Shown here piece by piece: positions 18,401 through 57,984 of a DNA stretch of 64,000 nucleotides (positions are counted from its first letter, which is position 1; every line of letters starts with the position of its first letter). Source of the stretch: Tridacna crocea (lineage: Eukaryota; Mollusca; Bivalvia; Cardiida; Cardiidae); the NCBI GenBank assembly GCA_943736015.1, contig OX031060.1, positions 24,071,231 to 24,135,230 of the forward strand, in the 5' to 3' direction. The notes beneath the pieces are model-generated. The model was not told where the DNA came from. It worked only from the letters and a program-made list of their open reading frames with translations, and did no database searches. The translations under genes were made by a program, and so were the position numbers.

Positions 18401-21400
18401 TAAGCAAGTGATTGTTGCTTAACCGTTTACCCAACAATCCCTGGTGTTTATGACCCTTAGAAAGAAGCCTTTTGAAAACATTGTGGGAAAAGGAGAAAAT
18501 GCTGGTAACCAGCATTTTCTCCTTTTCCCACAATGTTTTCTATCTTGTTGGAAACAAATTTCAATTTTTGAGTTACGGTTATCTTGTTGTCTGCAAGTGC
18601 TTTCAATTTGAATCTGTCTAAAATTTTGTTGTATTGGAAAGGGTTAACTCAGTGCCAAGTGATAAAAGATTGTTCTACACTAAACACTGTAAACTGAAAG
18701 TATTGTGGAAATATCAGACCGTATGGTAAAGGATTTGGCCAATACATTTTGGAAAAAACTTGTAGCAGATGACTTTTGACCATCTACCAAACAATCCTGT
18801 GTTTTAATGATGCTGAAGAAGAAAACATTCTGAAATATGTTGGAAAAGATGAAAATATTGGTGACCCGCATTTTCTCCTTTTACAATAGGTTCTGTGCTT
18901 GTATACGTGAATCTTATATCTAGAAACATATAGGATTTGTCATCTGCAAATGTTTTCAGAGTGGACCAGTCTGAAATGTTGTTGTTTTTGATAAAGAGTT
19001 AAAGCAGACCTTATAGCTTTGGCTAAACAGCATAAACTAAAGTTTTATTCAGATACATACCAAAACATTGTTGTTGCATTGCCATGAAATGTTTCTCCTT
19101 TAACCCTTTACCAAACAATCCCGGGTTTTTATGACCCTGAGACAGAATCCTTCTGAAAACATTGTGGGAAAAGGAGACAATGCTGGTAACCAGCATTGTC
19201 TCCTTTTCCCACAATGTTTTCTACCCTGCTGGAAACAAATTTCAAATTTATAGTTACATTTCTTTTGTCATCTGCAGGGGCTTTCAATTTGGATCAGTTT
19301 AGAATTCTGTTGTTTGGTAAAGGGTTAACCACAATGTTGTCAGAGATCATTTTGTAATAAAAGTGGAAAGTTGTTAGAATGAACTTTTCAGTTAAGATTT
19401 ATAAATGATAATTCTAAGAAGGAAAGATTGTCCATTTAAAGTAGTACAATTATACTTATTTTTAATCATAGCAAATTTTGTAGGATAATATTATAGTGGG
19501 AATAGCTGTTTTACATTACAGGTCTACAACCTTAACCCATAACCAAACAATCCCTACTTTTGACAACCCTGAGAAAGAAGCCCATAGAAAACATTGTGGG
19601 AAAAGGAGAAAATGCTTGTAACCATCATTTCTCCTTTTCCCACAATGTTTTCTACTTTTTACAGAACAAATTTTAAATTTTCAGTCACTCTTATTTTGTC
19701 GTCTGCAAATGCTTTTGATTTCAACAAGCCCAAAATATTGTCGTTTGGTAATGAGTTAAATGACATTCCCATTGTTGTGACAGGAAATTACCCTTGCTTT
19801 TGGCTTACTGTTTTCTTGAGGCTGTTTCAATTAAATGATCTTTTTTAAACATTTTCAAATCTGCATAAACTTTGACATAATGTAATATATTGCTTGTTTT
19901 TTATAGGAAATGCTTGGCTGCTGGATTTTTTATGAACTCGGCTGAACTTCAAAGGGAAGGAGAGTACATATCAGTGAGTATTGTTTACTGCATTCTGTAA
20001 CAAACTCTTCACCACATATCAAACTTTTTAGACTAGTTCCAGCTGAAAGAATTTGTTGGTGATAGATTAGGTAAGGTTCAATTTAGGAATTGGTATCTGA
20101 AAGGATAGAAAAGATTGTGAGAAAAAGAGGAAATGCTTTTTTCCATTGTTCACAATGTTTTGAAAAGCCATCTTTTCTGGTTAGCAGCATTTTTTTCCCT
20201 TTTCTAACATTGTTTTCAAAAGTCCTTTTCTTTCAGGTTTTAAAATGGGACTGTGTGTTAAATAATTAACTATCCTTTCCAAATTGTAAGTCCAATGTAT
20301 ATCACAAGCCTTCTAATTGGTCAAAACATAATGTCTCAACCAATCAGATGGTTTGTTTTGCAATTTTGAAATTGACAGATTTTGATTAGTTTCTGAATCA
20401 TACTGCCCATCCTGTTGTTTGGTTTTAATATTCATAAGCCCAATTGGATAGCTCAGTGGTTTGTGTATCAGACTTGTGACCTGGTGGTTGTGAGTTTGAT
20501 ACCTGGTTGAGGCAAACTTTCTGCTGATTTTTTGCCTCTCATATGTAATGCATGTGAGAAAGTAGTCAGATACTCAGAAAGAAAGTTGTGTCAGTACTGG
20601 CTTGAGAAAACTTGGAAACATGAGTAGGTGCACTGACCACAGTGATATGACCTATGATGTTAAAACTGCATTAACTCATTACCAAGCGACCATATTTTTG
20701 GTTTGTCCAAATCAAAAGCATTTGCAGACAACAAAATAAAAAGTGACTGAAAATTTGAAATTTGTTTTTTGAAGTGTAGAAAACATTGTGGGAAAAGGAG
20801 AAAATGCTGGTTACCAGCATTTTCTCCTTTTCCCACAATGTTTTCTAAGGGCTTATTTCTGAGGGTCGTCAAAAGTAGGGACTGTTTGGTTATGGGTTAA
20901 ACTCAAATTCATTCAGTTATAATCAGTGTTAATCACAATGTGTTGGTTCAACTGAAATTACCTTATGCTGCTAACGAAACATATTTGTTGACACTATAAA
21001 ATGTATATGGGCTATGGGAAAAGAGACTTGATGCATCATTGTCAATCATATCATCATACAGTTATGTATCCTAAAATCTCATATTTCAGTTGTCTTCAAG
21101 AAAGACTGTTACAATACATCCATCTTCAGCTCTGTTTCACTGTAAACCAGCCTATGTGATATATAATGAACTGGTTCAAACTACAAAGTGCTATATGAGG
21201 TAAGTGTAGAGTTTTCAATAAATGGAGGCTTCACTGGGTACTATTTCACTGATGACTTGTAAGTTTTTAAAAACAAAATTTTGTTATTTAATGTCATACT
21301 TTTTGTAGTTTATTGAGATATACCAGTGAAATTTACTTATTTGATAACTGCCAATACTGAACCACTTAGAATCTTGCATTCTGCCATAATTCTGGTCCAT

Positions 21401-22627
21401 ACCAACAGTGCTCTCTTTGTGAACTGTTAAATTCATTCTCATTGTAATGCAATCTTATTTTGAGGGTACAACACGGGAAATTACCCAAAACAACTGTTTA
21501 ACAAAAACCAGGGGGCTAAAAGCATGAAATATACAGAAACTTTTATGGGAGGGGACTTGATTGATAAAAATTTATTTCATCGAGAAGACATCATAAAATA
21601 TCATTATAAAAAAACTGTACTTGTAGCTGTACAGTCATGATAACTGATAATATTCACTTAGTGCCACAAATTTCAATCTTGAACTTCCAGGCCCATTTCC
21701 TCTATTTACACCTAAATTCGGACATACAAAATTTTCAAATATAATCTAAATCTATTTAACATGTGTAACTTCATGAATTTGGTTAGGTAAATATTTAGGT
21801 AACTTTTCAATCAAACTAAGAAGGTTATAATTGCAACCAAAGTAAACAGTGTATCCTGTTCAACCTGAAGAAAATATGAAATAGTTTATGCTCATTCATG
21901 TTACAATTCAGATGCTATAAGTCAACTCATATATTAGCCTATTCTGTCGAATATTGTGAGTGTGAAGAAATTATAAATTGTTTTAAAGAGAAAAAGAAAT
22001 TGATGATTACTGTTGATTGCTGTGAAGATATGCTGATGTATTTATTCAAGATTCTTTCTTTTCAGTGACTGAGTGCCAAAAAATTACTCCATATTTTCCC
22101 TATTATCTTTCTTTCAAACTAAATTCTATATATCTGGTAACACAAAAATATAAGGCAAACAAGTTCATTATTACGGTACAATGCAAAACCTTGACATATG
22201 CTGAAACTCACAAAGTTTGCGGACTTTGCTTAAGTTCTTTGTTAAAACAGTTGATCATTTGGTTGACTGATAGAATGACTGACCGATCAACCATACCACA
22301 CAATTCCGACCTTCAACGACCCTGGGAAAGAGGCCTTTTGAAAACATTGTAGGAAAAGAAGAAAATACTGGTAACCAGCGAAATCAAATTTCAATTTTTG
22401 ATTCACATTCCTTTTGTCGTCTGAAATGTTTTCAATTTGGACTAGTCCAAAATTTTGTCGTTTGGTACAGACATAAAGTATTAATTATGGATGAGGCTAT
22501 AATTTAATCCTATGGTAAGGTGTTAAATGTTAAATTTGAATGTTGCAGAGATCTATGTGTTGTGGATGCAGAGTGGTTATATGAAGCTGCTCCGGCATAT
22601 TTCAAGAAGAAGAAACCAGGTGGATAA
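2234..22627 (+). CDS. DHX33: DHX33 DEAH-box RNA helicase, C-terminal 478 residues, 14 coding exons (5' part outside window)
   Basis: Joined exons: 2234-2332, 3671-3756, 4847-5018, 6367-6464, 7474-7647, 9310-9400, 10284-10349, 11510-11598, 13467-13533, 14586-14690, 17596-17729, 19907-19973, 21090-21199, 22549-22627. They total 1437 nt and every junction has AG/GT and matching phase. The product runs from helicase motif III (SAT) through RecA2, the winged-helix/ratchet (HA2) part and the OB-fold to the stop. From memory of the vertebrate protein (about 707 aa), order and length match DHX33 well: a 478-aa tail leaves about 229 missing residues, as expected. DHX33 is chosen over DHX40 and other DEAH paralogues by the GRQYPIQ, SSEGDH and C-terminal LYEAAP stretches. 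Family knowledge: ATP-driven RNA unwinding, nucleolar rDNA transcription, translation initiation and cytosolic RNA sensing. Introns are largely transposon. No promoter can be seen because the 5' end lies outside. Confidence 0.95.
2333..3112. other. Intron without recognised feature
   Basis: AT-rich DHX33 intron sequence. I see no coding exon, no MITE and no clear repeat here. Confidence 0.5.
3113..3625 (+). mobile_element. tRNA-derived SINE split by a palindromic insert
   Basis: The head (TTGGCTCATTGGTAAGC, A-box-like; GGCTTCGATACCTGG, B-box-like) is at about 3113-3200. The tail (ATGCATGTGAGAAAAGTAGG, then CAATGATATGACC) resumes at about 3475. The uninterrupted copy at 20431-20670 shows about 250 bp here is foreign. 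TCTGGCAG occurs at both sides of the insert and may be a target duplication. Confidence 0.65.
3328..3402. repeat. Hairpin, about 36-bp arms and 3-base loop
   Basis: Inner arms ACTCATTAGAATCGTCTC / GAGACGATTCTAATGAGT pair perfectly and outer arms AAACCCTATGTAA / TTACATAGGGTTT also pair. A partial direct copy of the arm lies at about 3253-3300. It sits within the insert splitting the SINE. Confidence 0.75.
3671..3756 (+). CDS. DHX33: DHX33 exon b: start of RecA2
   Basis: Residues 34-61, beginning [15 protein letters not shown] and ending with CA of a split codon before GTAAGT. It corresponds to the linker from RecA1 into RecA2, which reads VFYTK in vertebrate DHX33. The CCAG acceptor directly precedes GTC. 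Confidence 0.93.
3793..4007 (+). mobile_element. TTAA palindrome-MITE copy, + orientation
   Basis: L end ACTCTTTACCAAACAAG, GCATTTGCATGCAAC, central palindrome around GGTTACC, R end ending GGTAAAGGGTTAA. Confidence 0.85.
4019..4098 (+). mobile_element. Degraded MITE core fragment
   Basis: TTTGGGAAAAGGAGAA and a decayed right arm, then a CACAAGGTCGTTAAC remnant of the R end. It abuts the next copy. Confidence 0.5.
4100..4319 (+). mobile_element. TTAA palindrome-MITE copy, + orientation, diverged
   Basis: Begins TTAACACATGATAAAATTC, has GCATTTGCAGACAACA, a weak palindrome, and ends GTGTGGAATAGTTTAA. Confidence 0.75.
4355..4578 (+). mobile_element. TTAA palindrome-MITE copy, + orientation
   Basis: L end CTAACTCTACCAAAC. 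The palindrome has paired changes (AAGAAGAAAATG / CATTTTCTTCTT). It ends in the TTAA at 4575-4578 that the next copy also uses. Confidence 0.85.
4575..4803 (+). mobile_element. TTAA palindrome-MITE copy, + orientation, abutting the previous copy
   Basis: Begins TTAACTCTGTACCGAACGAC and ends GCTGCAAGATTAA. It shares TTAA 4575-4578 with its neighbour and ends 43 bases before DHX33 exon c. Confidence 0.85.
4847..5018 (+). CDS. DHX33: DHX33 exon c: motif IV
   Basis: Residues 62-119. Contains [13 protein letters not shown] (motif IV region) and [16 protein letters not shown]. The first base completes Gln from the previous exon; the exon ends in phase 0 with CCAAAG before GTATGT. A MITE begins five bases into the following intron, so its TTAA supplies the sixth donor base. 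Confidence 0.95.
5024..5252 (+). mobile_element. TTAA palindrome-MITE five bases inside a splice donor
   Basis: Begins TTAACCCATCACCACACGAC immediately after donor bases GTATG of exon c and ends GTGTGGTAATGGGTTAA. Well preserved, with an intact palindrome. Confidence 0.9.
5325..5540 (+). mobile_element. MITE copy, + orientation, degraded
   Basis: Contains CCAGATTGAAAGCATTTTGC, palindrome arms around GGTTACC, and GGGATTGTTTGGTGAAGTG at the right end. Confidence 0.7.
5618..5725. mobile_element. GATC-core palindromic element
   Basis: CTCCTTATTAGACAGTGTGG leads to a palindrome with core GACTGCATGTTTTGTGCAGTC and flanking GATC motifs. Same family as 41745-41872. Confidence 0.6.
5843..6045 (+). 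mobile_element. MITE copy, + orientation, degraded
   Basis: TGAATCCTTTCCAAAATGAC, GCATCTGCAGAAGTC, GGGTAGAAAACATTGTGGG, with a broken right arm and a GTCTTTGTCTCAGGATGC remnant. Confidence 0.65.
6125..6330 (+). mobile_element. tRNA-derived SINE
   Basis: A-box TGGCTCAGTGGTAAAG and B-box GGGTTCAAGCCTC lie 30 bases apart, followed by a tail (GAAACCCAGGAAACATGAA, GTGATATGACTGAAAT). The head resembles a tRNA but is not a foldable gene. Confidence 0.7.
6367..6464 (+). CDS. DHX33: DHX33 exon d: motif V
   Basis: Residues 120-151 plus two bases. Reads [20 protein letters not shown], the conserved motif V of DEAH helicases, then [13 protein letters not shown]. The donor is GTATGT. Confidence 0.95.
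6538..6655. mobile_element. GATC-core palindromic element, diverged
   Basis: CCTTTTGCAGACAGTGTAGA, AAGATCAGACC and GGATCTACACAGTGTG mark the two arms; the core has decayed. Confidence 0.5.
6738..6948 (-). mobile_element. TTAA palindrome-MITE copy, - orientation
   Basis: TCAACCCTTTACCACAAAAT at left, CCTTTTGAAAATAGTGTGGG, a palindrome with two arm mismatches, and AAAGGGTTAA at right. The L half is eroded. Confidence 0.75.
7215..7443 (+). mobile_element. TTAA palindrome-MITE copy, + orientation
   Basis: TTAACCCGTTACCAAATGAC to GTGTGGTAAAGGGTTAA, complete. It contains AATAAA on the sense strand of DHX33. Confidence 0.9.
7474..7647 (+). CDS. DHX33: DHX33 exon e: motif VI
   Basis: Residues 152-209 plus two bases. 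Contains [11 protein letters not shown], the arginine-finger motif VI, then [10 protein letters not shown] and TVPEIQR. A MITE ends at 7443, only 30 bases before the acceptor; its terminal GGGTTAAAATGGG merges into the pyrimidine tract region. Confidence 0.95.
7813..8236. mobile_element. Foldback-bearing element with CRE-like sites
   Basis: A repeat also present, reversed, at 10424-10790. It contains TGACGTCA (about 7932) and TTGACGTCACG (about 7961), ends in a 70-bp hairpin (8079-8227), and has GATCGAAATTTATTTCATC at both arm tips. No ORF. Confidence 0.6.
8079..8227. repeat. Long inverted repeat, about 70-bp arms
   Basis: Arms include GTAAGATCGAAATTTATTTC / GAAATAAATTTCGATCTTAC and ACCATCGGTAATATTTTCAC with its complement. 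Few mismatches; it is the end of the element at 7813-8236. Confidence 0.75.
8340..8530. mobile_element. CCAAT-core foldback element
   Basis: ATTCTTAAGAA at the left and TTCTTAAGAATGG at the right; the centre reads CTGATTGGC ... AGCCAATCC. Inverted throughout, AT-rich, no ORF. A related element lies at 15590-15750. Confidence 0.6.
8531..9077. other. Intron, only a faint MITE remnant
   Basis: CACTGCAATGTTTTCAAAAG at about 9011-9030 recalls an R half of the MITE. Otherwise I see nothing. Confidence 0.4.
9078..9276 (-). mobile_element. TTAA palindrome-MITE copy, - orientation, palindrome collapsed
   Basis: TTGAATCCTTTACCAAACAG to GGTAAAGGGTTAA. The central hairpin is shortened to AAGGAGAATTTTCTCCTT by loss of the palindrome tip. 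It ends 33 bases before DHX33 exon f. Confidence 0.85.
9310..9400 (+). CDS. DHX33: DHX33 exon f: winged-helix region
   Basis: Residues 210-240. [15 protein letters not shown] is the conserved start of the winged-helix domain after motif VI; it ends FMDKPDSE in phase 0. The donor GTTTGT is a less common form. Confidence 0.92.
9401..10039. other. Intron with (GA)n microsatellite at 9455-9494
   Basis: About 20 GA units follow exon f by about 55 bases; the rest is AT-rich sequence with no recognised feature. Confidence 0.6.
10040..10264 (-). mobile_element. TTAA palindrome-MITE copy, - orientation
   Basis: TTAACCCATTACCATACAAT to GTTTGATAATAAGTCAA. The left palindrome arm is partly deleted (CATGGGAAATGG). 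It ends 19 bases before exon g. Confidence 0.8.
10284..10349 (+). CDS. DHX33: DHX33 exon g: winged-helix region
   Basis: Residues 241-262, [20 protein letters not shown] then LK. It is short (66 nt) with both ends in phase 0. A reversed MITE ends at 10264, leaving only about 19 bases for the pyrimidine tract and acceptor (TTTATACTTTTAG). Confidence 0.9.
10424..10790. mobile_element. Reverse copy of the 7813-8236 element
   Basis: GATCGAAATTTATTTCATGG, ACCATCAGTAATATTTTCAC and CAAGCACGAGAAATGTAAGG correspond to the earlier element in opposite orientation. It is in the next intron but one. Confidence 0.6.
10791..11103. other. Intron without recognised feature
   Basis: AT-rich; nothing supportable seen. 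Confidence 0.4.
11104..11332 (+). mobile_element. TTAA palindrome-MITE copy, + orientation
   Basis: TTAATTCATTACCACATGAC to GTGTGGTAATGGCTTAA with a long, nearly perfect palindrome. Confidence 0.9.
11510..11598 (+). CDS. DHX33: DHX33 exon h: ratchet (HA2) domain start
   Basis: Residues 263-291 plus two bases. [19 protein letters not shown] matches the conserved T.LG..MA.FPL.P segment of DEAH HA2 domains, followed by [10 protein letters not shown]. The donor is GTAAGT. Confidence 0.94.
11907..12134 (+). mobile_element. MITE copy, + orientation, heavily degraded
   Basis: TTAACTCCTCACCAAACAAC at left, AAAGAGAAAATGTG in place of the left arm, and TTCCTCCAAGTTGTTAAAAA at right. Confidence 0.55.
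12397..12629 (+). mobile_element. MITE copy, + orientation, diverged
   Basis: TTTACTCGATACCAAATTAC, GCATTTGCAGACAACAAAC, weak palindrome, ending TTGTGTGGTAAAGAGTGAA. Confidence 0.7.
12767..12848. repeat. Inverted repeat, about 35-bp arms
   Basis: TCGGTTTACTTCAAAAACCT and AGGTTTTTGGAAGTAAACTG face each other with inner arms CTACAG / CTGTAG. It ends at the edge of the next MITE. Confidence 0.65.
12852..13077 (+). mobile_element. TTAA palindrome-MITE copy, + orientation
   Basis: TTGAACTCTTTACCAAACAA to GTGTGGTAATGGGTTAA. The right arm lacks a few bases of the tip. Confidence 0.88.
13165..13315. mobile_element. GATC-core palindromic element
   Basis: CTCCTTAAAAGACAGTGTAG, arms GATCCAAGATCAGCC / GATCTTGATCTAC, then CACACTGAGCAGCCCAAGG near the terminal half. 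Confidence 0.6.
13467..13533 (+). CDS. DHX33: DHX33 exon i: HA2
   Basis: Residues 292-314: [19 protein letters not shown] then QSK. EILTI.S.LSV is highly conserved in HA2. Its first base completes Leu; the donor is GTGAGT. Confidence 0.93.
13534..14049. other. Intron without recognised feature
   Basis: AT-rich; nothing supportable seen. Confidence 0.4.
14050..14277 (-). mobile_element. TTAA palindrome-MITE copy, - orientation
   Basis: TTAAACCATCACCGCACAAT to TTTGGTAAGGGGTTAA, complete. Confidence 0.88.
14586..14690 (+). CDS. DHX33: DHX33 exon j: HA2
   Basis: Residues 315-349, [20 protein letters not shown] then [23 protein letters not shown] is a strong DHX33 signature; most DEAH paralogues read F....GDH here. 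Both ends are in phase 0; the donor is GTAATA. Confidence 0.94.
14772..14862 (-). mobile_element. Truncated MITE, R half only
   Basis: ATGAAACAATCCATGG, AGAAACCTTTAGAAAATG, left arm to GGTAACC, then foreign sequence. Confidence 0.6.
14863..15589. other. Intron without recognised feature
   Basis: AT-rich intron sequence. The short open frames here have no supportable coding signal. Confidence 0.4.
15590..15750. mobile_element. CCAAT-core foldback element
   Basis: AACTCTGATTGGCTGAAC, TGATTGGCCAAGCC and TAGCCAATCAGAAG form inverted arms reaching TTTTTCTCCAAGATTTTTTA / TTAGAAAATTGTGGAGAA. It abuts a MITE. Confidence 0.6.
15751..15973 (+). mobile_element. TTAA palindrome-MITE copy, + orientation
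   Basis: TTAACTCATTACCAAACAAC to GTGTGGTAATGAGTTAA. The palindrome tip is lost (GAGAAAATACCAGCATTTTC). Confidence 0.88.
16033..17566. mobile_element. Element with about 8 internal tandem units of about 155 bp
   Basis: The head has a palindrome (CTGAGCACAACGTGCTCAAG). Repeated units contain GATGTTCCTTGGGTGACCC and ATGGCTCTGGTGAATGGGGG. The terminus reads AGGGCCATCTTGGCCCTCTT. No ORF. The type is widespread in molluscs to my knowledge; it is non-autonomous and the class is undetermined. It ends 30 bases before DHX33 exon k. Confidence 0.75.
17596..17729 (+). CDS. DHX33: DHX33 exon k: HA2 / OB-fold junction
   Basis: Residues 350-393 plus two bases. [20 protein letters not shown] then [15 protein letters not shown], the W(C/A)..N..N...M..A..(V/I)R.QL signature. 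The acceptor lies 30 bases after a large tandem-repeat element (16033-17566), and a MITE begins about 25 bases after the donor GTTTGG. Confidence 0.94.
17754..17983 (+). mobile_element. TTAA palindrome-MITE copy, + orientation
   Basis: TTATCTCTTTACCAAACAAC to TTATGTTGTAACAAGTTAA; begins about 25 bases after the exon k donor. Confidence 0.8.
18047..18164 (-). mobile_element. Truncated MITE, - orientation, core flipped
   Basis: ACATTGCACAATCCAGAG, AAAAAAGCTTATTGAAAAC, then a palindrome whose odd central base is T (GGTTACC) although the flank is reversed. Confidence 0.65.
18179..18316 (-). mobile_element. MITE fragment, - orientation
   Basis: AAACCTCTTGGAAACATTAT, weak arms, then CCAAATTTCAACATTTTAG as in L halves read backwards. 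Confidence 0.55.
18419..18647 (-). mobile_element. TTAA palindrome-MITE copy, - orientation
   Basis: TTAACCGTTTACCCAACAAT to GTATTGGAAAGGGTTAA with a perfect long palindrome. Confidence 0.9.
18776..19002 (-). mobile_element. MITE copy, - orientation, degraded
   Basis: TTGACCATCTACCAAACAAT to TTTTTGATAAAGAGTTAA; arms poorly matched. Confidence 0.65.
19099..19328 (-). mobile_element. TTAA palindrome-MITE copy, - orientation, paired arm change
   Basis: TTAACCCTTTACCAAACAAT to GTTTGGTAAAGGGTTAA. Arms read GGAGACAATGC and GCATTGTCTCC, a matched change from the usual AAAATG/CATTTT. Confidence 0.92.
19532..19758 (-). mobile_element. TTAA palindrome-MITE copy, - orientation
   Basis: TTAACCCATAACCAAACAAT to GTTTGGTAATGAGTTAA. 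Confidence 0.88.
19907..19973 (+). CDS. DHX33: DHX33 exon l: OB-fold start
   Basis: Residues 394-416: [20 protein letters not shown] then IS. It corresponds to R(R/K)CL..G(F/Y)F.N.A in DEAH OB-folds. The donor is GTGAGT. Confidence 0.93.
20001..20269 (+). mobile_element. MITE copy, + orientation, degraded with internal duplication
   Basis: AACTCTTCACCACATATC at left; the right arm and ACAATGTTTTGAAAAGCC occur twice (about 20150 and 20210); ends GGACTGTGTGTTAAATAATTAA. Confidence 0.6.
20280..20400. mobile_element. CCAAT-core foldback, diverged
   Basis: TTCTAATTGGTC and CAACCAATCAGATGG in inverted arrangement flanked by CAATTTTGAAATTGACAG. Confidence 0.4.
20431..20670 (+). mobile_element. tRNA-derived SINE, uninterrupted
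   Basis: A-box-like TAGCTCAGTGGTTTG, B-box-like GAGTTTGATACCTGG, tail with ATGCATGTGAGAAAGTAG and CAGTGATATGACC. It is the same family as 3113-3625 and the reference for its interruption. Confidence 0.7.
20671..20900 (+). mobile_element. TTAA palindrome-MITE copy, + orientation
   Basis: TTAACTCATTACCAAGCGAC to GTTTGGTTATGGGTTAA; perfect long palindrome; inserted at the SINE tail. Confidence 0.9.
21090..21199 (+). CDS. DHX33: DHX33 exon m: OB-fold core
   Basis: Residues 417-452 plus two bases. [20 protein letters not shown] then [23 protein letters not shown] is the hallmark of the OB-fold. The donor is GTAAGT. Confidence 0.95.
21200..22284. other. Last intron, mostly unrecognised
   Basis: AT-rich. 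21545-21660 (ATTTATTTCATCGAGAAGAC) looks like a fragment of the 7813-8236 element. Nothing else supported. Confidence 0.4.
22285..22470 (-). mobile_element. MITE copy, - orientation, right arm deleted
   Basis: TCAACCATACCACACAATTC, left arm to GGTAACCAGC, then directly AAATCAAATTTCAATTTTTG and GTCGTTTGGTAC. Confidence 0.75.
22549..22627 (+). CDS. DHX33: DHX33 terminal coding exon n
   Basis: Residues 453-478 then TAA (22625-22627). [18 protein letters not shown] then KKKKPGG. D...V..EWL.E.AP.(F/Y) ends the conserved part of DEAH helicases. A (GA)n tract starts about 25 bases after the stop. Confidence 0.95.
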
Positions 22628-22642
22628 TGAGAGAGACATAGT

Positions 22643-22702
<60 letters not shown>

Positions 22703-22824
22703 ATAGTGGTGTAGAGATTATATTCATTTTCATGGCAGCTAGATCATCTATCATTGTGTTTATGGAGTTCTTAAGCTAGTTCTATACACAATATTCTCCC
22801 TTAGCCTATGGCTACTTTTCCACA
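22628..22824 (+). other. Likely DHX33 3' UTR start with (GA)n tract
   Basis: The stretch after the TAA carries a (GA) run at about 22648-22698 and no AATAAA before the first MITE. The first AATAAA (about 22889-22894) lies inside that MITE, so the transposon may supply the poly(A) signal. The UTR call is inferred from position. Confidence 0.4.
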
Positions 22825-23009
22825 TTAACTTTTCACCAAATGACAAAATTTCGGACTACACCAGATTGAAAGGATTAGTAGACAACAAAATAAATTTGAA
22901 TCACAATTGAAAACTGTGTTGTAAGGGTACAAAATATTGTGGGAAAATGGTCTCCAGCATTGTGTCTTTTCCCCATAGTGTTTTCAGGACTCTTTCAAAG
23001 GGTCATTAA
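22825..23009 (+). mobile_element. MITE copy, + orientation, R end lost
   Basis: TTAACTTTTCACCAAATGAC, decayed palindrome, CTTTCAAAGGGTCAT, then directly the TTAA shared with the next copy. Contains the first AATAAA after the DHX33 stop. Confidence 0.7.
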
Positions 23010-23206
23010 CCCTTTACCAAACGACAAAATTGTACATTGGTCTAAATTGAAAGCACTTGCAGACGACAAAATAAACGTAACTCAAATATTGAAAATTGTT
23101 TCCAGCAGGGTGGTAAACATTGTGGGAAAAAGAGAAAATGCTGGTTTCCAGCATTTTCTCTTTTTCCCTAAATGTTTTCAAAAGGCTTTGTTTGGTAAAG
23201 GGTTAA
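23006..23206 (+). mobile_element. TTAA palindrome-MITE copy, + orientation
   Basis: TTAACCCTTTACCAAACGAC to GTTTGGTAAAGGGTTAA. Paired arm changes AAAAAGAG / CTCTTTTT; a deletion in the R half (AAAAGGCTTTGTTTGG). Confidence 0.9.
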
Positions 23207-23511
23207 AGTATGTGGTTGATTATGAAGGGAAAATACAATTCAGATGCTTTGCAAGGATTCTAGTGGAATGAACCCTATCACATTGTCCAATACTTGTTCT
23301 CGAAATGTTCATTTGAAATCCCAATATTATCAGCCTTAAACCTTTCACAGTGTAGGACCAGAAGTGTGCATTTTGTGCGAATTGGAATTCTGCACAGTGA
23401 AGATTTGTCACCTTGTGTTTAACTTGGAAATTTTCTGTCGTATAGTCTCCTGAGATCTACTCTTCTCTTTCAAGTGACTGTACAAATTTCTGTTCTAAGT
23501 GTAACTCATAA

Positions 23512-23585
23512 ATTGAAATTTGTTTCCAGCAGGGTAAAAAAAAGAATTGTGGGAAAAGGAGAAAATGGTGGTTATCGTTACTGTG
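23512..23585 (+). mobile_element. MITE fragment
   Basis: TTGAAATTTGTTTCCAGCAG and GTGGGAAAAGGAGAAAATG then unrelated sequence. Confidence 0.55.
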
Positions 23586-23720
23586 TGACCAAGTGACAAA
23601 TGATCCCTATATTGAATCTCAAGTCACATACAATTCATGCTTCCGATCCTACACAGTGTCCTTTTATCAGAAGACAAATTTTTAAACCTGTCCACATAAT
23701 AAGATTTGCTGGAGAAAAAA

Positions 23721-23925
23721 TTGACCCTTTACCAAACAATCCCTGTTTTTTTTTCGACCCTGAGATAGAAACCTTTTGAAAACATTTCTGGTAACCAGCA
23801 TTTCCTCCTTTTCCCACAATGTTTTCTCCCCTGCTCGAAACAAATTTCAATTTTTGACTGAGGTTTATTTTGTCATCTGCAAGTGCTTCCAATATGGAAC
23901 AGTCTATAATTTTGTAAAGAGTTAA
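23721..23925 (-). mobile_element. MITE copy, - orientation, left arm deleted
   Basis: TTGACCCTTTACCAAACAAT, AACCTTTTGAAAACATTTCTGGTAACC (arm missing), right arm intact, TTTGTAAAGAGTTAA. Confidence 0.8.
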
Positions 23926-24002
23926 TGTGATTCAACTGCTTGGCATTGTGGTTTGAGGTAAGAAGCTTATGGGAAGCACTAGCTTTTAAGTGGGACTACC
24001 AT

Positions 24003-24100: not shown

Positions 24101-24239
24101 AAATTCTGGTTACCAGCATCTTCTCCTTTTCCCATGATCTTGTCAAAAGTAAAAGGTCAAAAGTGACCAATGATATAAAGATTGAACATTCTTTCTGCAG
24201 AAGCACTTTAATTCACACTTAGCAGCCCAGAATTTTAGA

Positions 24240-24516: not shown

Positions 24517-25561
24517 TTTTTCAGCACAACATGCTCAAGGGGAGCTTTTAGGATCACCTGGTGTCTGTTGTGCATCGTCAACAGTTCTTTAAACATCAAC
24601 TCCTCCTAAAGCGCTGGGCAAATTTGGACCAAACTGGAATGTTCCTTGGGAGGTCCTCTTTAAAAATTGCTCACAGAATTTGATTCTCTGTTTGCCTTGG
24701 CAACCAAATGGAATTTTCTAAGAAATTCTTTAAAAATTTTCCTCTCTGAAACTGTTGGGCAGATTTTAAAATAATTTCACAGAGATGTTCCTTGGGTGAC
24801 CCTTTTTAAAATTTGTTTGCGAAATTTTGATCCATCAAGAAACATGGCTCTGGTGAATGGGGGCTACTTGCACTACAGAAATGAAGAAATTCTTAAAAAT
24901 TCTTCTTCTCTGAAACTGCCACTCAGATTTTGAAATAATTTCACAAGGATGTAGTTTGAGTGACCCTTTTCAAAAATGGTTCTTGAAATTTTGATCCGTC
25001 AAGAAACATGGCTCTGGTGAATAGGGGCTACTTGCACTATAGGGAAACAAAGAAATTCTTAAAAATTATTCTTCTCTCAAACAGCTGGTCAGATTTTGAA
25101 GTAATTTCACAGCAACATTTCTTGGGTGACCTTTTTTAAAAATTGACCGTGAAATTTTGATTCGTCAAGAAACATAGCTGTGGTGAATGGGGGCTGCTTG
25201 CACTATATGGAAATGAAGAAATTCTTGAAAATTCTTCTTCTCTGAAACTGCCAGTCAGATTTTGAAATAATTTCACAGCAATGGCCCTTGGGTGACCCTT
25301 TTCAAATTTTGATCCGTCAGGAAACATGGCTCTGGTGAATGGGGGCTACTTGCACTATACGGAAACTAAGAAACTCTTAAAATTTTTCTTTTCTGAAACT
25401 GCTGGTCAGATTTTGAAATGACTTTTACAGGTGACCTTTTGAAAATTACTTTGCAAAATAATGATTTTGTTTCCAGTCTTTCAGTACCTCAAAAAAAAAG
25501 GCTATGGTCCGCTCAAAAAATTCATTTGAGCGATCAGAGCCATCTTTGCCCTCTTGTATTA
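24517..25561. mobile_element. Second copy of the 155-bp-unit element
   Basis: Head CAGCACAACATGCTCAAGGG, about 5 internal units with GATGTTCCTTGGGTGACCC, terminus AGCCATCTTTGCCCTCTTGT. Same family as 16033-17566 with fewer units. Confidence 0.75.
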
Positions 25562-30467: not shown

Positions 30468-30714
30468 TTAACTCTTTGCCAGACGACAAACTTCAGATTG
30501 TTCAAAACTGAAAGAATTAACAGACGACAAAATATAAGTGACTCAAAATTGGAAATTTGTTTTGGGAAAGATAGAAAACGTTGTAGGAAAAGGAGAAAAT
30601 ACTGGTTACCAGCATTTTCTCCTTTTCCTACAATGTTTTCAAAAGATTTCACTGAGTCTTTTGACTCTTCACAGAGTCGTGAAAACCCGCAGGGATTGTT
30701 TGGTAAAGAGTTAA
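30468..30714 (+). mobile_element. TTAA palindrome-MITE copy, + orientation
   Basis: TTAACTCTTTGCCAGACGAC to GTTTGGTAAAGAGTTAA. Paired arm change GTAGGAAAAGG / CCTTTTCCTAC; the R half carries a small local inverted duplication (GACTC...GAGTC). Confidence 0.88.
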
Positions 30715-32761: not shown

Positions 32762-32990
32762 TTAATTCATTAACACACGAGAAAATTTTGGACTGGTCCA
32801 AATTGAAAGCATTTGCAGACTACAAAATAAAGGTGACTGAAAAATAGAATTTTTTTCTGGGAAAGGTAGAAAACACTGTTGGAATAGGAGAAAATGCTGG
32901 TTACCAACATTTTCTCCTTTTCCAACAGTGTTTTCAAAAGGCTTCTTTCTCAGGGGCGTCAAAAGTAGGGATTGAGTGGTAATGGGTTAA
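32762..32990 (+). mobile_element. TTAA palindrome-MITE copy, + orientation
   Basis: TTAATTCATTAACACACGAG to GAGTGGTAATGGGTTAA. Paired change ACTGTTGGA / TCCAACAGT. The final TTAA is shared with the next copy. Confidence 0.9.
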
Positions 32991-37419: not shown

Positions 37420-37450
<31 letters not shown>

Positions 37451-38085
37451 GTCGTCGTCGTCGTCGTCGTCGTCGTTATCGTCGTCACCATCACCATCAT
37501 TATCGTCATCGTCGTCGTCGTCACTATCATCATCGTCATCGTCGTCGTCGTCACCATCATCATCGTCATCGTCGACGTCACCATCACCATCGTCATCGTC
37601 GTTGTCACCATCACCATCGTCATCGTCGTCGTCGTCGTCACTATCACCATCATCATCGTCATCGTTGTCACCATCACCATCGTCATCGTCGTCGTCACCA
37701 TCATAATCGTCGTCGTCGTCGTCACCATCGTCATCATCATCATCGTCGTCATCGTCGTCGTCACCATCACTTTCACCATCGTCATCATCATCATCACCAT
37801 CATCATCGTCATCGTCGTCGTCGTCACCATCACCATCGTCAACATCATAATCGTCGTCGTCACCATCACCATCTTCATCATCATCATCGTCATCGTCGTG
37901 GTCACCATCACCATCGTCAACATCATCGTCGTCGTCGTCACCATCGTCAACATCATCGTCGTCTTCGTCACCATCACCATAGTCGTCATCATCATCATCA
38001 TCATCGTCGTTGTCGTCGTCACCATCACCATCGTCATCATCATCATCATCACCACCACATCATCATCATCATCATTCAAGCTAGC
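37420..38085. repeat. Complex (ATC/GTC)n trinucleotide block, about 650 bp
   Basis: Almost every triplet is ATC or GTC, with ACC and rare ATA or TTC, arranged in imperfect higher-order units such as ACCATCACCATCGTCATCG. The long minus-strand open frame is only M, T, V and I and is a by-product of the repeat. Confidence 0.92.
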
Positions 38086-38684: not shown

Positions 38685-38745
38685 GCGGTGTAGATCGAAG
38701 TTCGACAGCACATTTTGCGCTGTCTGATCTCATCTCGACAGGTGA
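38685..38745. mobile_element. GATC-core element fragment
   Basis: GGTGTAGATCGAAGTTCGAC, AGCACATTTTGCGCTGTCTG, ATCTCATCTCGACAG; runs into the perfect hairpin at 38740. Confidence 0.45.
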
Positions 38746-38808
38746 GTGCAACACTATTCTAAGTGCCTGTACATTGCACAGGCACTTAGAATAGTGTTGC
38801 ACTCACCT
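38740..38808. repeat. Perfect hairpin, 31-bp arms, 7-base loop
   Basis: Arm 38740-38770 begins AGGTGAGTGCAACACTATTC; loop ACATTGC (38771-38777); arm 38778-38808 is its exact reverse complement. No mismatch seen. Confidence 0.95.
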
Positions 38809-38831
38809 ATCTATCTGCTCTTTCCATGAAG

Positions 38832-41872: not shown

Positions 41873-42182
41873 AATAGTTACAGGAGTTAAATAAATGGAC
41901 TGTGTAACACCTTGCTTCGTAAGGATATATGGAGCCACCACATGCGGCTTTTTAAAAATGTCGTACACATAACAGAGAAAGTGTTCGTAAAGAGTATCTT
42001 TCCCATTTGCTATAATGTTTCACTCTTTCTTAACCGTAGTTTTGACTATGTGCAATAGAGTTTCTTCCCTTTTCTTTATTTGACCGTAATTTTTAATATC
42101 TCGTGCATGTCTATATGTATACAGAGTTTATGTAGTGGTGGCACAGAACAGTACCTGACGTATCTGAGCATGCATCTGCGAA

Positions 42183-42237
42183 AAGTATCGACTCAGGTCA
42201 GCCTGCGCAGTACGCGCAGGCTGACCTGGGCCGATTC
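42183..42237. repeat. GC-core palindrome element
   Basis: GTATCGACTCAGGTCAGCCT then GCGCAGTACGCGC then AGGCTGACCTGGGCCGAT; near-perfect hairpin. Confidence 0.7.
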
Positions 42238-42574
42238 TTTCCGCTATTGGTCAATTTTCTGTAAGTCCAAGGACCAGTCTATCTATAGATTATGTCGCTT
42301 GTTACCAAAGGGGCTATTAATAGTATGGATTAATAATGTTACGATTCGATTGGTACCATGCATCACGAAAGAAACATTAAGCCCCCTTTTGCCAGAGGAT
42401 GTCACAAATATACATGTACTTTGATCATATTGTTGATTTTTTGACATGTTTTCCTTATTTTATCCACTCAAACATTTTGAACTTTCTTTGGTTAAATGAC
42501 AATAGTTCAAACACCTGAAGATTCCCAGCCCTATTCACGCACATGTACTATTCAAATTATTGTTTAAAATCAAA

Positions 42575-43011: not shown

Positions 43012-43238
43012 CTCACCCTTTCCCAAACAAGCCCTTGTTTATACGTGTCTGCAGTACACGTCTTTTAAAAACACTGTGGGAAAAGGAGAAATTGCTCGTA
43101 ACGAGCAATTTCTCCTTTTCCCACAGTGTTTTCTACCCTTTTTAAGAACTTTTTGCCATTTTGTCCAAATCTAAAATTGTCGTCTGCAAACTCTTTCGGT
43201 CTGGAAGAGTCCAAAATTTGTTGTTTGGGAAAGGGTTA
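43012..43238 (-). mobile_element. MITE subfamily B copy, - orientation
   Basis: TCACCCTTTCCCAAACAAGC to GTTTGGGAAAGGGTTAA. Perfect palindrome with tip AAATTGCTCGTAACGAGC. The R half has its own short hairpin (ACGTGTCTGCAGTACACGT). Confidence 0.9.
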
Positions 43239-46158: not shown

Positions 46159-46240
46159 CGCTTTTTGAAAACATGGCGACTAAAGGAGAAATTGCTCGTT
46201 ACGAGCAATTTCTCCTTTAGTCACCATGTTTTCAAGCCTT
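46159..46240 (+). mobile_element. MITE core, subfamily B type
   Basis: TTTTTGAAAACATGGCGACT, AAAGGAGAAATTGCTCGTTA, then CGAGCAATTTCTCCTTTAGT and CACCATGTTTTC. Arms carry a shared change (ACTAAAGG/CCTTTAGT) but the flanks are lost. Confidence 0.75.
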
Positions 46241-51067: not shown

Positions 51068-51299
51068 TTAACCCATTACCACGCAATCCCTACTTTTGAC
51101 GACCCTGAGAAAGAAGCCTTTAGAAAACATTGTGGGAAAAGGAGAAAATGCTGGTAACCAGCATTTTCTCCTTTTCCCACAATGTTTTCTACCCTTTGCA
51201 AAATAAATTTCGAATTTTCAGTCATTTTTATTTTTTCGTCTGGAAATGCTTTCGATTTGAACAGGTCTAAAATCTTGTCGTGTGGTAAAGGGTTTTAAG
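51068..51299 (-). mobile_element. TTAA palindrome-MITE copy, - orientation
   Basis: TTAACCCATTACCACGCAAT to GTGTGGTAAAGGGTTTTAA; well preserved. Confidence 0.9.
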
Positions 51300-52494: not shown

Positions 52495-52723
52495 TTAAAC
52501 TCTTTACCACACGAGAAAAATTTAGACTGGTCCAACTGAAAGCATTTGCAGACGACAACGTAAAAGTGACTGAAAAATTGAAATTTGTTCTGGGAAGGGT
52601 AGAAAACACTGTGGGAAAAGGAGAAAATGCTGGTTACCAGCATTTTCTGCTTTTCCCATAGTGTTTTCAAAAGGTTTCTTTCTCAGGGGCGTCAAAAGTA
52701 GGGATTGTGTGGTAATGGGTTAA
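52495..52723 (+). mobile_element. TTAA palindrome-MITE copy, + orientation
   Basis: TTAAACTCTTTACCACACGA to GTGTGGTAATGGGTTAA. Confidence 0.9.
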
Positions 52724-53979
52724 TTTGCCACTGTCTTTAAATGTAATCTACTGCAGATCTACATGCACAGATCACTTTATTTATATTTCAAGTATAGGCT
52801 ACAACCATCGCTTTACTAAAGGTCATACCTAAATGAAAAGGAGGAGCAAACACTGATTTAAATGACAAGATCCGACTTACGTTGACTATTTGATAGTATC
52901 GTAGAGACCAGATATCGGTCACGTGGTCGCAATTTGGTCTCATGTTGCACAAAAGGGTCGTTCAAGGTCATTTATTACCGGTGTCACCTTTAACATGTAT
53001 ACACACAGCAGGGAAAGCCATCTTCCCAACAGGGTAAATGATTTTACACATACAGTAGATTACCTTTGTTACAAAAAAAAAATTGGGCACCCCAAATCTG
53101 TCAAAAAAAAAGACAAAGGAAGAGATACTGGAATATGAATACTGAAACTCTTTTGTTATTCAATGTGAAGAAAAATACCTGTATTGAAAAGTATTTACGT
53201 GAATTGAAAAGTATTTACGTGTATTGAAAAGTATTTACGAATTGAAAAGTACCCATTGCCTCTTTTTTTCGTTGTTTTCCGTATTACCATAACCAGTTTT
53301 CAATTAGACATTTTCTTTTCATAAATAGATTTTAAATAGGGATGGCAATGGTTAATAAATTTGCTAACCGGTTAACCGTTCAATCTTTCGATCGGTTAAC
53401 CGGTTTTAATCCAACTCAGTCGATTGGCAAGGAGCAGTTGATGCTAAACATGTACATTAATAAGTTTTAGGGACACGCATAGAAGTATATCAAAAATCCG
53501 CTTTTTCTTTCCATCTTTGGCGCCCTTGCTATGATTAATACTTTCGATGTCTGAAAAATGCCCACTGAATCAATGGACGAAGTTACAAATTAAATGATCA
53601 AACTCTTTTGGAAAGATTCTGATAGAAAATTATGACTATGATTTCTTTTCTTTAAGTTGAGTAATTCGATTCAAAAACGGTATAGCGGTGAATTTCCATC
53701 GGTGAAATGTGCGGTGTATGTGCATATCAAGGTACATGATCCAGGGACATGAACGAAGGTTTGTCGAATGGCTTCGACTAGGTGGGATTATTCGAATATT
53801 TAAATGAGTACAATGAAATAATTTCTGTCTCATATACGGATTTCCTTGAGAAAACGACAATCATGTCATCAAAACGTCAAAATTTTACGTTTTTACCGAG
53901 TATATCATTCGAATTTCTACATAATTGTACAGAAATATAATTCTAGATGTTTCCTGTCTCGTTCTGAGAAAATTTTGAT
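52724..53979. other. Intergenic with short repeats
   Basis: Four units of about 21 bp (ATTGAAAAGTATTTACG) at about 53180-53250, and CCGGTTAACC palindromes at about 53360-53415. No gene supported. Confidence 0.5.
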
Positions 53980-54048
53980 ATGGGGGAAAAACAGAATCCA
54001 AATGAGCCAAAAGTAGGCTTTATGGATCCCCATGATGCAGAATACAAA
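53980..54048 (+). CDS. Possible first coding exon, unrecognised
   Basis: ATG then MGEKQNPNEPKVGFMDPHDA EYK, ending at an exact GTAAGT donor in phase 0. An in-frame candidate continuation lies at about 55086. Evidence is limited to a short open frame and donor, which can occur by chance. Confidence 0.2.
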
Positions 54049-54176
54049 GTAAGTCATCACGTGATTATCGGTCCACCTATCGATTAAGTTTAATGATTGC
54101 TTGTATCTGGAGGAAGAGTGGTTTTTTGAACATGCAAAAATTTGGCCAATAGTCAGTTGACCAAATAATTATCTGC

Positions 54177-54250
54177 AGAAAGTTTCGACCCATGTCAGCC
54201 TTCGCGAACTGCGCAGGCTGACTCGGGTCGATACTTTTTGTAGATGTATT
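54177..54250. repeat. GC-core palindrome element
   Basis: GTTTCGACCCATGTCAGCCT, TCGCGAACTGCGCAGGCTGA, CTCGGGTCGATAC. Confidence 0.65.
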
Positions 54251-54319
54251 GACTTCCCCTTTTTACAGAGTATGACCCATATATGGCTTGCAAAACACAA
54301 AAAGGATCATTCGGATATT

Positions 54320-54390
54320 TGTGTAAAGTGTCGTCTTGGATCAGCCTGCGCAGTCCGCGCAGGCTAATCCAAGACGCCAGTTTACGACTA
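54320..54390. repeat. GC-core palindrome element
   Basis: GTCGTCTTGGATCAGCCTGC, GCAGTCCGCGCAGGCTAATC, CAAGACGCC; near-perfect hairpin. Confidence 0.7.
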
Positions 54391-54439
54391 TATTAGAACT
54401 TGTCCAACAATAGACATGTGCATAACTGAAAATCACATG

Positions 54440-54515
54440 AAAACGGAAAGTGTCATTTCGTATTAGCCTGCGCGGATTGCGCAGGCTGAACCGACACGAA
54501 ACTTTTACAAATGTC
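54440..54515. repeat. GC-core palindrome element
   Basis: GTGTCATTTCGTATTAGCCT, GCGCGGATTGCGCAGGCTGA, ACCGACACGAAAC. Confidence 0.65.
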
Positions 54516-54589
54516 CGAATTCCCCGTTTGTCTTGTTGTAAGCCATATATCTATCAGACTTCCAACAAACAGCTTAATCATGCAGGCTT

Positions 54590-54680
54590 GACTACACCGA
54601 ATGGTATAGACCCAAGATCAAATTGGACGTTCTGTGCAGTCTGATATTAATCTATGCAATCCGTAAAACCCTTTATTTCG
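54590..54680. mobile_element. GATC-core element, diverged
   Basis: TATAGACCCAAGATCAAATT, GGACGTTCTGTGCAGTCTGA, ATCTATGCAATCCG. Confidence 0.5.
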
Positions 54681-55744
54681 CCTTTTCGGTTAATATACAA
54701 ATCATTAATGAATACCATTATTTTTTCGCCATTATCATCCAATTGAAAGCAGATGTCATAAATTTGTTGATATCGTTTAAGAAATTTTGAACAAATAAGA
54801 CCGGAGTTAAAGTAAACATGTTGTTACGTTTGAAGTGTGTATTTGCACAATGAATAGCAGTTTATGTGTCTATTAAGGTCGTAAAACAAAGGGAGGCGCC
54901 TTCGAATGAATCTTTTTGATACAAAATTACTACCACTGAAGTACATGTACTTCCATTAATTCCTTACAGTTTTGCCCCAATAATGTTAAAAACAGCTTTA
55001 TAGAGTTTTTCAGCTATTTCAAGACGATAGTTCACTTACACACGAGTTCCGTAAGTTTCACCAGAGCTTATAGCTAGTGTGTCAGCCAGTGAAACACATT
55101 GTCCACGTCACTCCCTGGCTAACGCAACTGCCGGAAGAAATGGATCGAGAACCCCTAAATTACAAATCTTGGGCTTCTCCTTCAGAGTTCTGGTGTTACA
55201 TTGACAAAACAAGCAGACGGTATAAAACCAAGAACATAATGCAGATTGATCTGATCTATTTTGTTAATACAATCCTATGTGTTTGCTTCAAGCTCCGAAA
55301 AGTTTACTTCAGCAAGGCCGAGTCCCTGTAGTCCTGTGACTGCGTCATAGTTGAAATGTCGTCGAAAATGTTGTAAAATACCAATCACGAAACAAGCTAC
55401 CAAATTTAGCAGGATTAATACTGATTCACGGTTTATTGCCAAGGCATTTTTAGCGTCTTTAAAAGCCAAATTCCAATTAATATCGATTGATGATTCATTG
55501 CAAAAGCTTTTTCCGCTTTTCCGCTATACCGAAATCTGTGGTGTCCACCCTTGCTGAGAATGTATTAAAAATCACGTTTGCTTAAGAAGCAGGTAGCTTA
55601 AGACGGATAAGCAGACGACATGTTTGCGTTCGGGCTGTGAACGTCGTCTAATATGTTTACAAAAGTCTGACAAATTATCTCAAGACAAATAGTAACAAAA
55701 TAAATTTTCTTCTCTTTGATAACCATTCTTTTCCTTTTTATAGC
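54681..55744. other. Intergenic, one weak exon candidate
   Basis: Apart from the candidate at 55086-55219 I see no feature. Confidence 0.35.
55086..55219 (+). CDS. Possible internal exon, Tudor-like fragment
   Basis: The frame begins PVKHIVHVTPWLTQLPEE and contains SWASPSEFWCYIDKTSRR. The SPSEFWC pattern recalls Tudor domains (SP..F(Y/W).Q), but the preceding acceptor tract (TAGCTAGTGTGTCAG) is weak. It may be a lone exon, a pseudogene piece or chance. Confidence 0.2.
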
Positions 55745-55975
55745 TCCGTATTTATCGACCCTTGAAAAGAAAGGCCTTTTAAAAACATAAGTCTAAAAAA
55801 GAAAGGCCGTTTAAAAAACCTAGAGGGAAAAGGAGAAAATGCTGGTAACCAGCATTTTCTCCTTTTCCCGCCATGTTTTAACCCTTTCAAGGCAAAAGCA
55901 TAGATACCATGGTCTGAAGTACATTTTTGTGGTTTCAGTTTGGACAGATCTAATATTTTGTCGTTCCGAGGTTTA
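55745..55975 (-). mobile_element. MITE copy, - orientation, with local duplication
   Basis: TCGACCCTTGAAAAGAAAGG, the GAAAGGCC(T/G)TTTAAAAA segment present twice, perfect palindrome, GACAGATCTAATATTTTGTC. Confidence 0.75.
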
Positions 55976-56128
55976 ATTCCGTTACTTTACGAATCCGAAT
56001 TTTCGGTCCTAGACATGGACGTGTTTGAAAAGAAAAATCTACAAGAAACTGTTCCTTTTGATTCGGTGATTTGGTCATGCAATTCAAAACGGGGGTTTCC
56101 ATTTTCTTCAAAATTCTGTTGTAAGTGA

Positions 56129-56729
56129 CACGCGCAATGGTGATAGATGGGTTAGAGTGAGAAAGTGCGGAAAGTGTAAATTTATTCCTTGCGTCACAAT
56201 TTTACCATGTCTTCGACGTCGGCGAAATAATAGAGAAAAGAAGCCAACAGAGAAACGTTTCAATCCTTAGAGATATTTGGTGACTTTTTCTATAGCCAAA
56301 GAAGTACAAATGTAGCTACTTAAACATTTTGCCCAGCATATAATTTATCAGTTTTATTTCAACATGGTTGTTATTGCGTTAACTGTGTTTGATGATAGGG
56401 GTATCCTAATCGCGGTCTGTCACTTAAAAGGGTAATTTAGATTGTTTTGCAACTTTGGTCATATTTAAATGTTTTATAATCAAGGTCTCTGAACGTATTT
56501 CAAGGAGTGATAAAGCTTTAAAGTTTTATTTTAATGCGTAAAATGGCGGCTTAAAAATCCGTGCAAACAGTTCCTGTAGGTTTTGGAATTCATGGTACCC
56601 TTTTCGTTTTGTACCTGCAAGTGGATCCTAGCCACTGGAACTTTAATCATTTACCCCATAAGGCATTTCTATGGTATCTCTAACTGACCCTAAATAACAG
56701 CAAGGATGAAGGCGTTTCTTATGTGTATA
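56129..56729. other. Intergenic, nothing recognised
   Basis: No supported feature. Confidence 0.35.
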
Positions 56730-56872
56730 TGACACCTTTTGATAGTGTAGAAAATATTGTGGCAAAAGGTGAAATTGCTCGTCACGAGCAATTTCACCTT
56801 TTGCCACAATGTTTTCCAAAGGCTCCTACAAGCAATGCGTAGAAATGAGTATCTATGGAGTTAAGGATTAAA
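56730..56872 (+). mobile_element. Diverged MITE with perfect variant palindrome
   Basis: Arms ATTGTGGCAAAAGGTG / CACCTTTTGCCACAAT with tip AAATTGCTCGTCACGAGC pair exactly despite several changes from the family; flanks are poorly conserved. Confidence 0.8.
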
Positions 56873-56892
56873 ACTTTATCCTGCTGAATAAG

Positions 56893-57123
56893 TTAACCCT
56901 TTACAACACACAATAGAATTTTAGACCTGTCCAAATCAAATGCATCTGCAGACAACCATAAAAATTATGGTAAACCAGCATTTTCTCCTTTTCCAACAAT
57001 GTTTTCAACCCTGATTGAAACAAATTTCATTTTTTTTTTAAGTTTCGTTATTTTGAAGTCGGAAAGTGCGTTCAATTTGGAGCAGCCTAAAAATTTGTCG
57101 TTATACGTCGTACAAAGAGTTAA
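56893..57123. mobile_element. MITE fold-back form, left-left
   Basis: Left: TTAACCCTTTACAACACACA, GACCTGTCCAAATCAAATGC (L half). Right: GTTCAATTTGGAGCAGCCTA, AAAATTTGTCG, ACAAAGAGTTAA (L half inverted). No R half; palindrome partly deleted. Confidence 0.75.
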
Positions 57124-57139
57124 AACACGTTTAATATTT

Positions 57140-57205
57140 TGTCTTCAATTGCTTTGAATTTTGGACTAATCCAAAACAATGTCGTTTGGTAAAGATGTAA
57201 CGCTT
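57140..57205 (-). mobile_element. MITE L-end fragment
   Basis: TTGCTTTGAATTTTGGACTA, ATGTCGTTTGGTAAAGATG. Confidence 0.6.
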
Positions 57206-57287
57206 AACAAAATCATAAATATTAGATCCATGCTCTGGTAAAAGGGGGCTTTAGGCACTTCACGATGTCCTGTGCAAATCAAGCCCA

Positions 57288-57503
57288 TTACGTCAAAAGT
57301 AACAAATTTCAAACTGTTCCAAATTGAAAGCAATTGCAGACGACAAAATAAAAGTAAGTCAAAAATTGACCTTTGTTCCCAGCAGGATAGAAATCGTGGG
57401 AAAAGGAGAAAATGCTGGTTACCAGCATTTTCTCCTTTTCCCATAATGTCTTCAAAAGGCTTCTATCCCAGGGTCGTAAAAACCAGGGATTGTTTGGTAA
57501 TCA
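57288..57503 (+). mobile_element. MITE copy, + orientation, terminus lost
   Basis: ACTGTTCCAAATTGAAAGCA, intact palindrome, TTCTATCCCAGGGTCGTAAA, GATTGTTTGGTAATC. Confidence 0.8.
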
Positions 57504-57589
57504 ACATTTACTTAGTTTCGGACAAGAGGTTAATAACCTACTGAATCATTAGGTAGCCAGATCCTTGTACATACACAAAATTGACTAAT

Positions 57590-57665
57590 GGCGAAAAATG
57601 TCGGCCTAGGTCAGCCTGCGCGGACTGCACAGGCTAACCTGGGTCGATACTTGTCACAGATGCAT
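57590..57665. repeat. GC-core palindrome element
   Basis: GTCGGCCTAGGTCAGCCTGC, GCGGACTGCACAGGCTAACC, TGGGTCGATAC, then ATGCATTAAGCCCC. Confidence 0.65.
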
Positions 57666-57758
57666 TAAGCCCCCTTTCCACACAGCACAGATGAATTATT
57701 TTAGTATGCTCTTATTGGTTGTTCTTTTTTTTTTTGCAAACGTCAAATGAAGTGTGTC

Positions 57759-57984
57759 TTAACCCATTACCACACAATCCCTACTTTTAACGACCCTGAG
57801 AAGGCTTTAGAAAACAATGTGGGAAACGGAGAAAATGCTGGTAACCAGCATTTTCTCCGTTTCCCACAATGTTTTCTACCCTTCACAGAACAAATTTCAA
57901 ATTTTCAATCACTTTGATTTTGCCGTCTGCAAATGCTTTCAATGTTGACAAACCTAAAATGTTGTCGTTTGGTAATGAGTTTAA
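57759..57984 (-). mobile_element. TTAA palindrome-MITE copy, - orientation, paired arm change
   Basis: TTAACCCATTACCACACAAT to GTTTGGTAATGAGTTTAA; arms AAACGGAG / CTCCGTTT changed together. Confidence 0.9.

Follow-up and report, generated by a model that had tools for sequence, protein, structure and literature searches.

The near-perfect palindrome that recurs through this part of the Tridacna crocea genome appears to owe most of its pairing to shared descent. In the account that we favour, and hold with moderate confidence, the mobile lineages of the element stay paired, rare hairpin-templated copying from arm to arm seeds new pairs, and resident copies decay mostly by changes in one arm. 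We analysed a window of 64,000 nucleotides (contig OX031060.1, positions 24,071,231 to 24,135,230) together with sampled regions of the same genome. A sequence-only reading of the window had proposed that the hairpin is a template for its own repair or, alternatively, that the variants are old subfamilies with paired arms. Subfamily inheritance proves to be the larger part of the explanation, and efficient repair within each copy fails on an excess of one-armed changes.

The palindrome, of 67-71 bases, is the core of a non-autonomous element of about 229 bp with TTAA target-site duplications (TSDs) and CCC...GGG ends. The consensus of the aligned window copies (229 bp) starts with TTAA-CCCTTTACC and ends with GGTAAAGGG-TTAA. 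These end sequences and the TTAA duplications fit a piggyBac-type MITE, an assignment made from sequence. Kolobok was also considered; its ends are given as 5'-RR...YY-3' in PMC9587614, and it is excluded by the CCC start and GGG end of the consensus. In the 132 copies that retain both ends intact, the TSDs deviate from TTAA at 71 of 1054 sites. Two sites stand out in family A: the left TSD departs from TTAA at its second T in 11.7% of usable copies and the right TSD at its third A in 14.9%, compared with 2.6-8.3% at the other six sites; some family A insertions were perhaps made into non-TTAA sites. The 33-nt arm gave no match in a scan of IMG/VR, and none of the titles and abstract openings listed by literature searches on such elements describes this one.

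The element is abundant. The exact 49-bp core has 68,413 matches in the genome (1.05 Gb in 31 contigs). With up to 20 mismatches allowed, the window holds 55 cores. Twenty regions of 10 kb, the positions of which were chosen regardless of the element, together contain 139; 19 of them hold at least one, and a crude extrapolation from this sample gives about 0.7 million copies.

Changes in both arms had been claimed for six copies, and all six are present in the sequence. A family A element on the forward strand at 19100-19328 (core 19155-19221; the end is placed by indel-free projection onto the 229-bp consensus) carries the paired variant 25C:45G and no unpaired pair. Three family A cores lie on the reverse strand: 23111-23181 (palindrome 23115-23177) with paired 20A:50T and four unpaired pairs, 30572-30642 (palindrome 30574-30640) with paired 13A:57T and two unpaired pairs, and 32867-32937 (palindrome 32869-32935), where the lineage-linked pair 9C:61G is accompanied by a scattered pair, 13T:57A, and by two unpaired pairs. 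The core at 56748-56818 (palindrome 56750-56816, reverse strand) belongs to family B and has one unpaired pair. The sixth, at 57808-57878 on the forward strand, is a family A core with 35-nt arms, paired 19C:51G and one unpaired pair. These six are selected examples, and five of them carry unpaired pairs beside the paired change. The 47 usable copies of the window contain 21 paired-changed pairs and 135 unpaired ones, a ratio that refutes the suggestion that each copy efficiently templates its own repair; seven of the 47 lack any unpaired pair. Between 19099 and 57984 there are 28 usable copies, with 15 paired-changed pairs and 63 unpaired ones.

Of the other cores in the window, two are perfect, with 35-nt arms and the TAG form of the palindrome (20777-20847, reverse strand, and 51121-51191, forward strand). 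One on the forward strand at 43065-43135 has paired 9C, 27T and 32C, an arm state intermediate between families A and B, and the core at 46165-46235 is that of another palindrome element, which is more distant and has dissimilar flanks. The copies at 9132 and 15857 have deletions at the centre of the palindrome, as is expected for unstable palindromes. Three further near-perfect palindromes of unrelated sequence (38737-38811, 3328-3402 and 8063-8241, with arms of 37, 37 and 87 nt) are perhaps the cores of other elements. The window also holds tandem arrays of a related unit of about 166 bp (16258-17173 and 24720-25419; also found in the sampled region L025), a CAT-type triplet array with several open frames on both strands (37420-38075), and GCGCAGGCT-type inverted repeats (54197-54505 and 42178-42244), a type familiar from bivalve genomes.

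For tests of pairing, copies were located solely from their flanks, with no part played by the palindrome in their selection, and the search was repeated after more regions had been added. The 234 copies found in this way were reduced to 223 by dropping 11 obtained via a variant match, and to 168 usable copies by dropping 55 with more than eight gaps or an insertion in the palindrome. An earlier set of 158 copies was used for the shuffles and the nearest-neighbour substitution. The 168 copies contain 67 paired-changed cells, 36 of them at the lineage-type states 9C, 15C, 22T, 27T and 32C, and 18 cells in which both partners have changed to non-complementary bases. Single-arm changes number 446, including 36 inside these 18 cells.

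That pairing exceeds chance, as the sequence-only reading supposed, is borne out: 64 paired cells were observed in the 158 copies, compared with a mean of 10.8 and a maximum of 26 in 500 shuffles. When the right arm of each copy was replaced by that of its nearest flank neighbour, 42 paired cells were still obtained, from which we conclude that most of the pairing reflects shared history. Drawing the right arm at random from the 3, 5 or 10 nearest neighbours gave 35, 31 and 22 paired cells, respectively. Among 69 arm variants in the 168 copies, the six that are strongly linked to the flanks (p < 1e-6) are both members of the pairs 9:61, 27:43 and 32:38. In the flanks the same threshold is reached by 61 variants out of 354, which occupy 53 of 150 columns; this count may be favoured by testing each flank column with neighbours set by the remaining flank columns. 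Four of 12 paired variants are linked to lineage with p < 1e-13, one of them being 1A, a change that extends the 33-nt arms to 35 nt; the best of 71 one-armed variants reaches p = 0.0044, unremarkable for 71 tests.

The comparison of families gives a similar picture. The arms of families A and B differ at eight sites, which form four pairs (15, 22, 27 and 32), and at the centre, while the flanks agree at 35 of 56 alignment columns and, on the right, at 57 of 111. Family B is represented by 17 copies in the sample, two of which are from a sister family. Six of the 17 carry 56T, one-armed in five and paired in one; this is probably a shared variant, commoner than decay alone would give, and pairing of the source would then not be absolute. 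The terminal inverted repeats also co-vary (73 pairs, compared with a shuffle mean of 37.7 and a maximum of 50), and pairing at the lineage level is therefore not unique to the palindrome. For family A we regard the existence of paired, lineage-linked variants as firmly established.

Two of the named variants were followed through the genome. The exact core with 25C:45G, the change in the copy at 19153, occurs 92 times, and the off-partner control 25C/46G not at all as an exact core. Seventeen of 20 carriers fetched from the 92 fall in one flank lineage, marked by -29G/79G; 15 of these 17 also have 70G, compared with one of 18 background copies of the same lineage. 70G is missing from the copy at 19153 itself, which has flank distances of 0.13-0.17 from six siblings that lack 25C:45G and of 0.15 to 0.34 from the 20 carriers; the siblings were picked by likeness to this copy, and the distances fit either an early branch or a separate origin. 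With the family B copy at 56748 and the lineage-linked 9C:61G of the copy at 32867, this variant upholds the old-subfamily reading for part of the examples.

The variant 19C:51G of the copy at 57808 behaves differently from a subfamily marker, and paired variants are not all confined to subfamilies. It is found in five exact 49-bp cores genome-wide, compared with about 0.4 expected under independence (from the one-mismatch listing and the perfect-core count). The five carriers differ from each other by flank distances of 0.17 to 0.40, random copies being about 0.28 apart. For the closest carriers, one in region L029 and the window copy (0.17 apart), the sample holds copies without the variant that are nearer still, at 0.14 and 0.10, respectively, and we therefore read at least four separate origins. 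The off-partner control 19C/52G has no exact core in the genome, where its expectation is likewise near zero.

The 19:51 site is also prone to double changes of other kinds. It has 410 one-mismatch matches, and the 95 listed, tallied by hand, comprise 43 changed on the left only, 35 on the right only, seven non-complementary doubles, nine paired with one extra change and one strand duplicate. Scaled from seven of the 95 listed to the 410, non-complementary doubles number about 30 genome-wide, more than the five complementary exact cores, so that pair-specificity is not demonstrated by this site alone. Four of the seven listed doubles are of the class 19C/51A, which may be a small lineage. CpG decay was considered as the source of this class and rejected, as the mirror class 19T/51G is absent among the 95 matches listed of 410.

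The sample as a whole also bears on events in individual copies. With lineage states masked, the 168 copies have 31 paired cells, whereas 1000 permutations stratified by mutational load average 14.4 and never exceed 26; non-complementary double cells number 13, compared with 11.6 expected. Cells with both members changed number 44 for the true partner and 8-29 for partners slid by 1 to 6, with the peak at +1. The excess of scattered pairs leads us to infer arm-to-arm copying, which we regard as probable: about 17 paired cells, set against about 410 strictly one-armed changes, correspond to about 4%. Some of the scattered pairs may be small lineages outside the sample. We found no excess of inversion at the centre, where A>T, A>G and A>C number 10, 12 and 4 of 155 (one-armed changes in the arms: A>T 76, A>G 68); the set found by palindrome, with 25 T and 23 G among 210, likewise has no inversion excess. 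A self-comparison for duplicated insertions did return long repeats, the longest being a recent tandem repeat in the sampled region L028.

The competing explanations differ in how much they leave to the individual copy. Chance double mutation as the source of the paired variants is very improbable. G>A hot sites do raise the likelihood of some double hits and the load-matched null is as high as 14.4 cells, but its maximum falls below the observed 31, the scattered paired A>C changes number four against 0.08 expected, and the lineage-linked arm variants form exact pairs. We give just as little credence to efficient self-repair, in which every copy mends one arm from the other. In its favour, AT sites of the arms diverge by 3.6% and TSD sites by 6.7% in the same 132 copies, although the TSD figure comes partly from two hot sites; against it, one-armed changes far outnumber paired ones, which means that copies are not efficiently self-repairing, and symmetric correction should by simple reasoning yield as many paired as reverted changes. 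A strong suppression of arm divergence was considered and rejected: the contrast between 5.5% in the arms and 16-18% in the flanks includes subfamily divergence in the latter, and the TSD comparison yields about twofold at most.

Ectopic gene conversion between copies, which would move whole paired cores to unrelated flanks without the arms templating each other, seems unlikely to be the main process, though it has several points in its favour. Identical cores are abundant, 19C:51G is found on differing flanks, and arm divergence falls towards the centre, from 2.8-4.7% in three outer bins to 2.1-2.3% in two inner bins at AT sites and from 7.2-11.0% to 5.2-6.6% at GC sites; a minimum beside the centre, as in the family A sample, is what ectopic conversion started by a centre break would give. 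Frequent conversion should, however, wipe out one-armed decay, which is plentiful. A more serious competitor, to which we would nevertheless give well under an even chance, is inheritance alone: every pair would derive from a paired source, with no copying in resident copies, and the scattered pairs would be unsampled small lineages together with chance double hits. The 42 paired cells still obtained with neighbouring arms, against the 64 observed, the concentration of 25C:45G mostly in one lineage (among the 20 of 92 carriers read) and the frequent non-complementary doubles at 19:51 all speak for it; the five differing flanks of the 19C:51G carriers and the 31 scattered pairs, above the permutation maximum of 26, speak against it.

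The combination of paired lineages and rare arm copying would work as follows. Elements that found new copies nearly always have paired arms, and the common arm changes are therefore the paired ones that mark a subfamily or family, as is seen within family A and between A and B, with the one probable exception in B. After insertion, copies decay mainly by ordinary one-armed mutation, as the counts above show. A few percent of one-armed changes would be copied to the opposite arm, for which template switching or hairpin copying in replication is the simplest route; these rare events would provide the paired variants, and a part of them would then be amplified. That founders are paired fits either an aid to mobility from pairing or frequent correction in active lineages. 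We lean towards selection acting on founders that were seeded by rare arm copying. A more specific version, which we advance tentatively and judge possible but short of probable, is that mobility requires the palindrome in cis: new lineages would be founded only by fully or nearly fully paired copies, the arms would evolve through paired steps seeded by rare hairpin copying, and the palindrome would be a functional core held in common and longer-lived than the sub-terminal sequences of its carrier elements.

The genome offers a natural record of palindrome maintenance. Given the 68,413 perfect cores, and one-step variants that run to hundreds at one base pair, the rate of arm-to-arm copying could be measured in a living genome, and the element family could show whether dependence on an internal palindrome is possible for mobile elements.

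The element resembles piggyBac-superfamily MITEs in its TTAA duplications, short inverted ends, length of about 229 bp and high copy number. It differs from them in its long near-perfect central palindrome, which is better conserved between families than the sub-terminal sequence. The copying process that we suggest has its closest parallel in quasipalindrome correction and short-range template switching (PMC8604942, PMC8794818, PMC7954356). In yeast, template switching homogenizes the arms of inverted repeats and the same paired change recurs (PMC8604942), features that would be common to both systems, and arm homogenization by template switching has been discussed for RNA hairpins (PMC8794818). 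Here, such copying would be at most a minor layer above inherited pairs, lacks an excess of spacer inversion and is spread over many resident copies of one element. REPINs provide a further comparison. Like the element here, these are small, mobile and palindromic; according to PMC3116915, they are bacterial units in which compensatory changes across the hairpin are common, and they are linked to RAYT transposases. In contrast to that bacterial, RAYT-linked system, the palindrome described here resides in a 1.05-Gb genome as part of a TTAA element and is internal to separate inverted ends.
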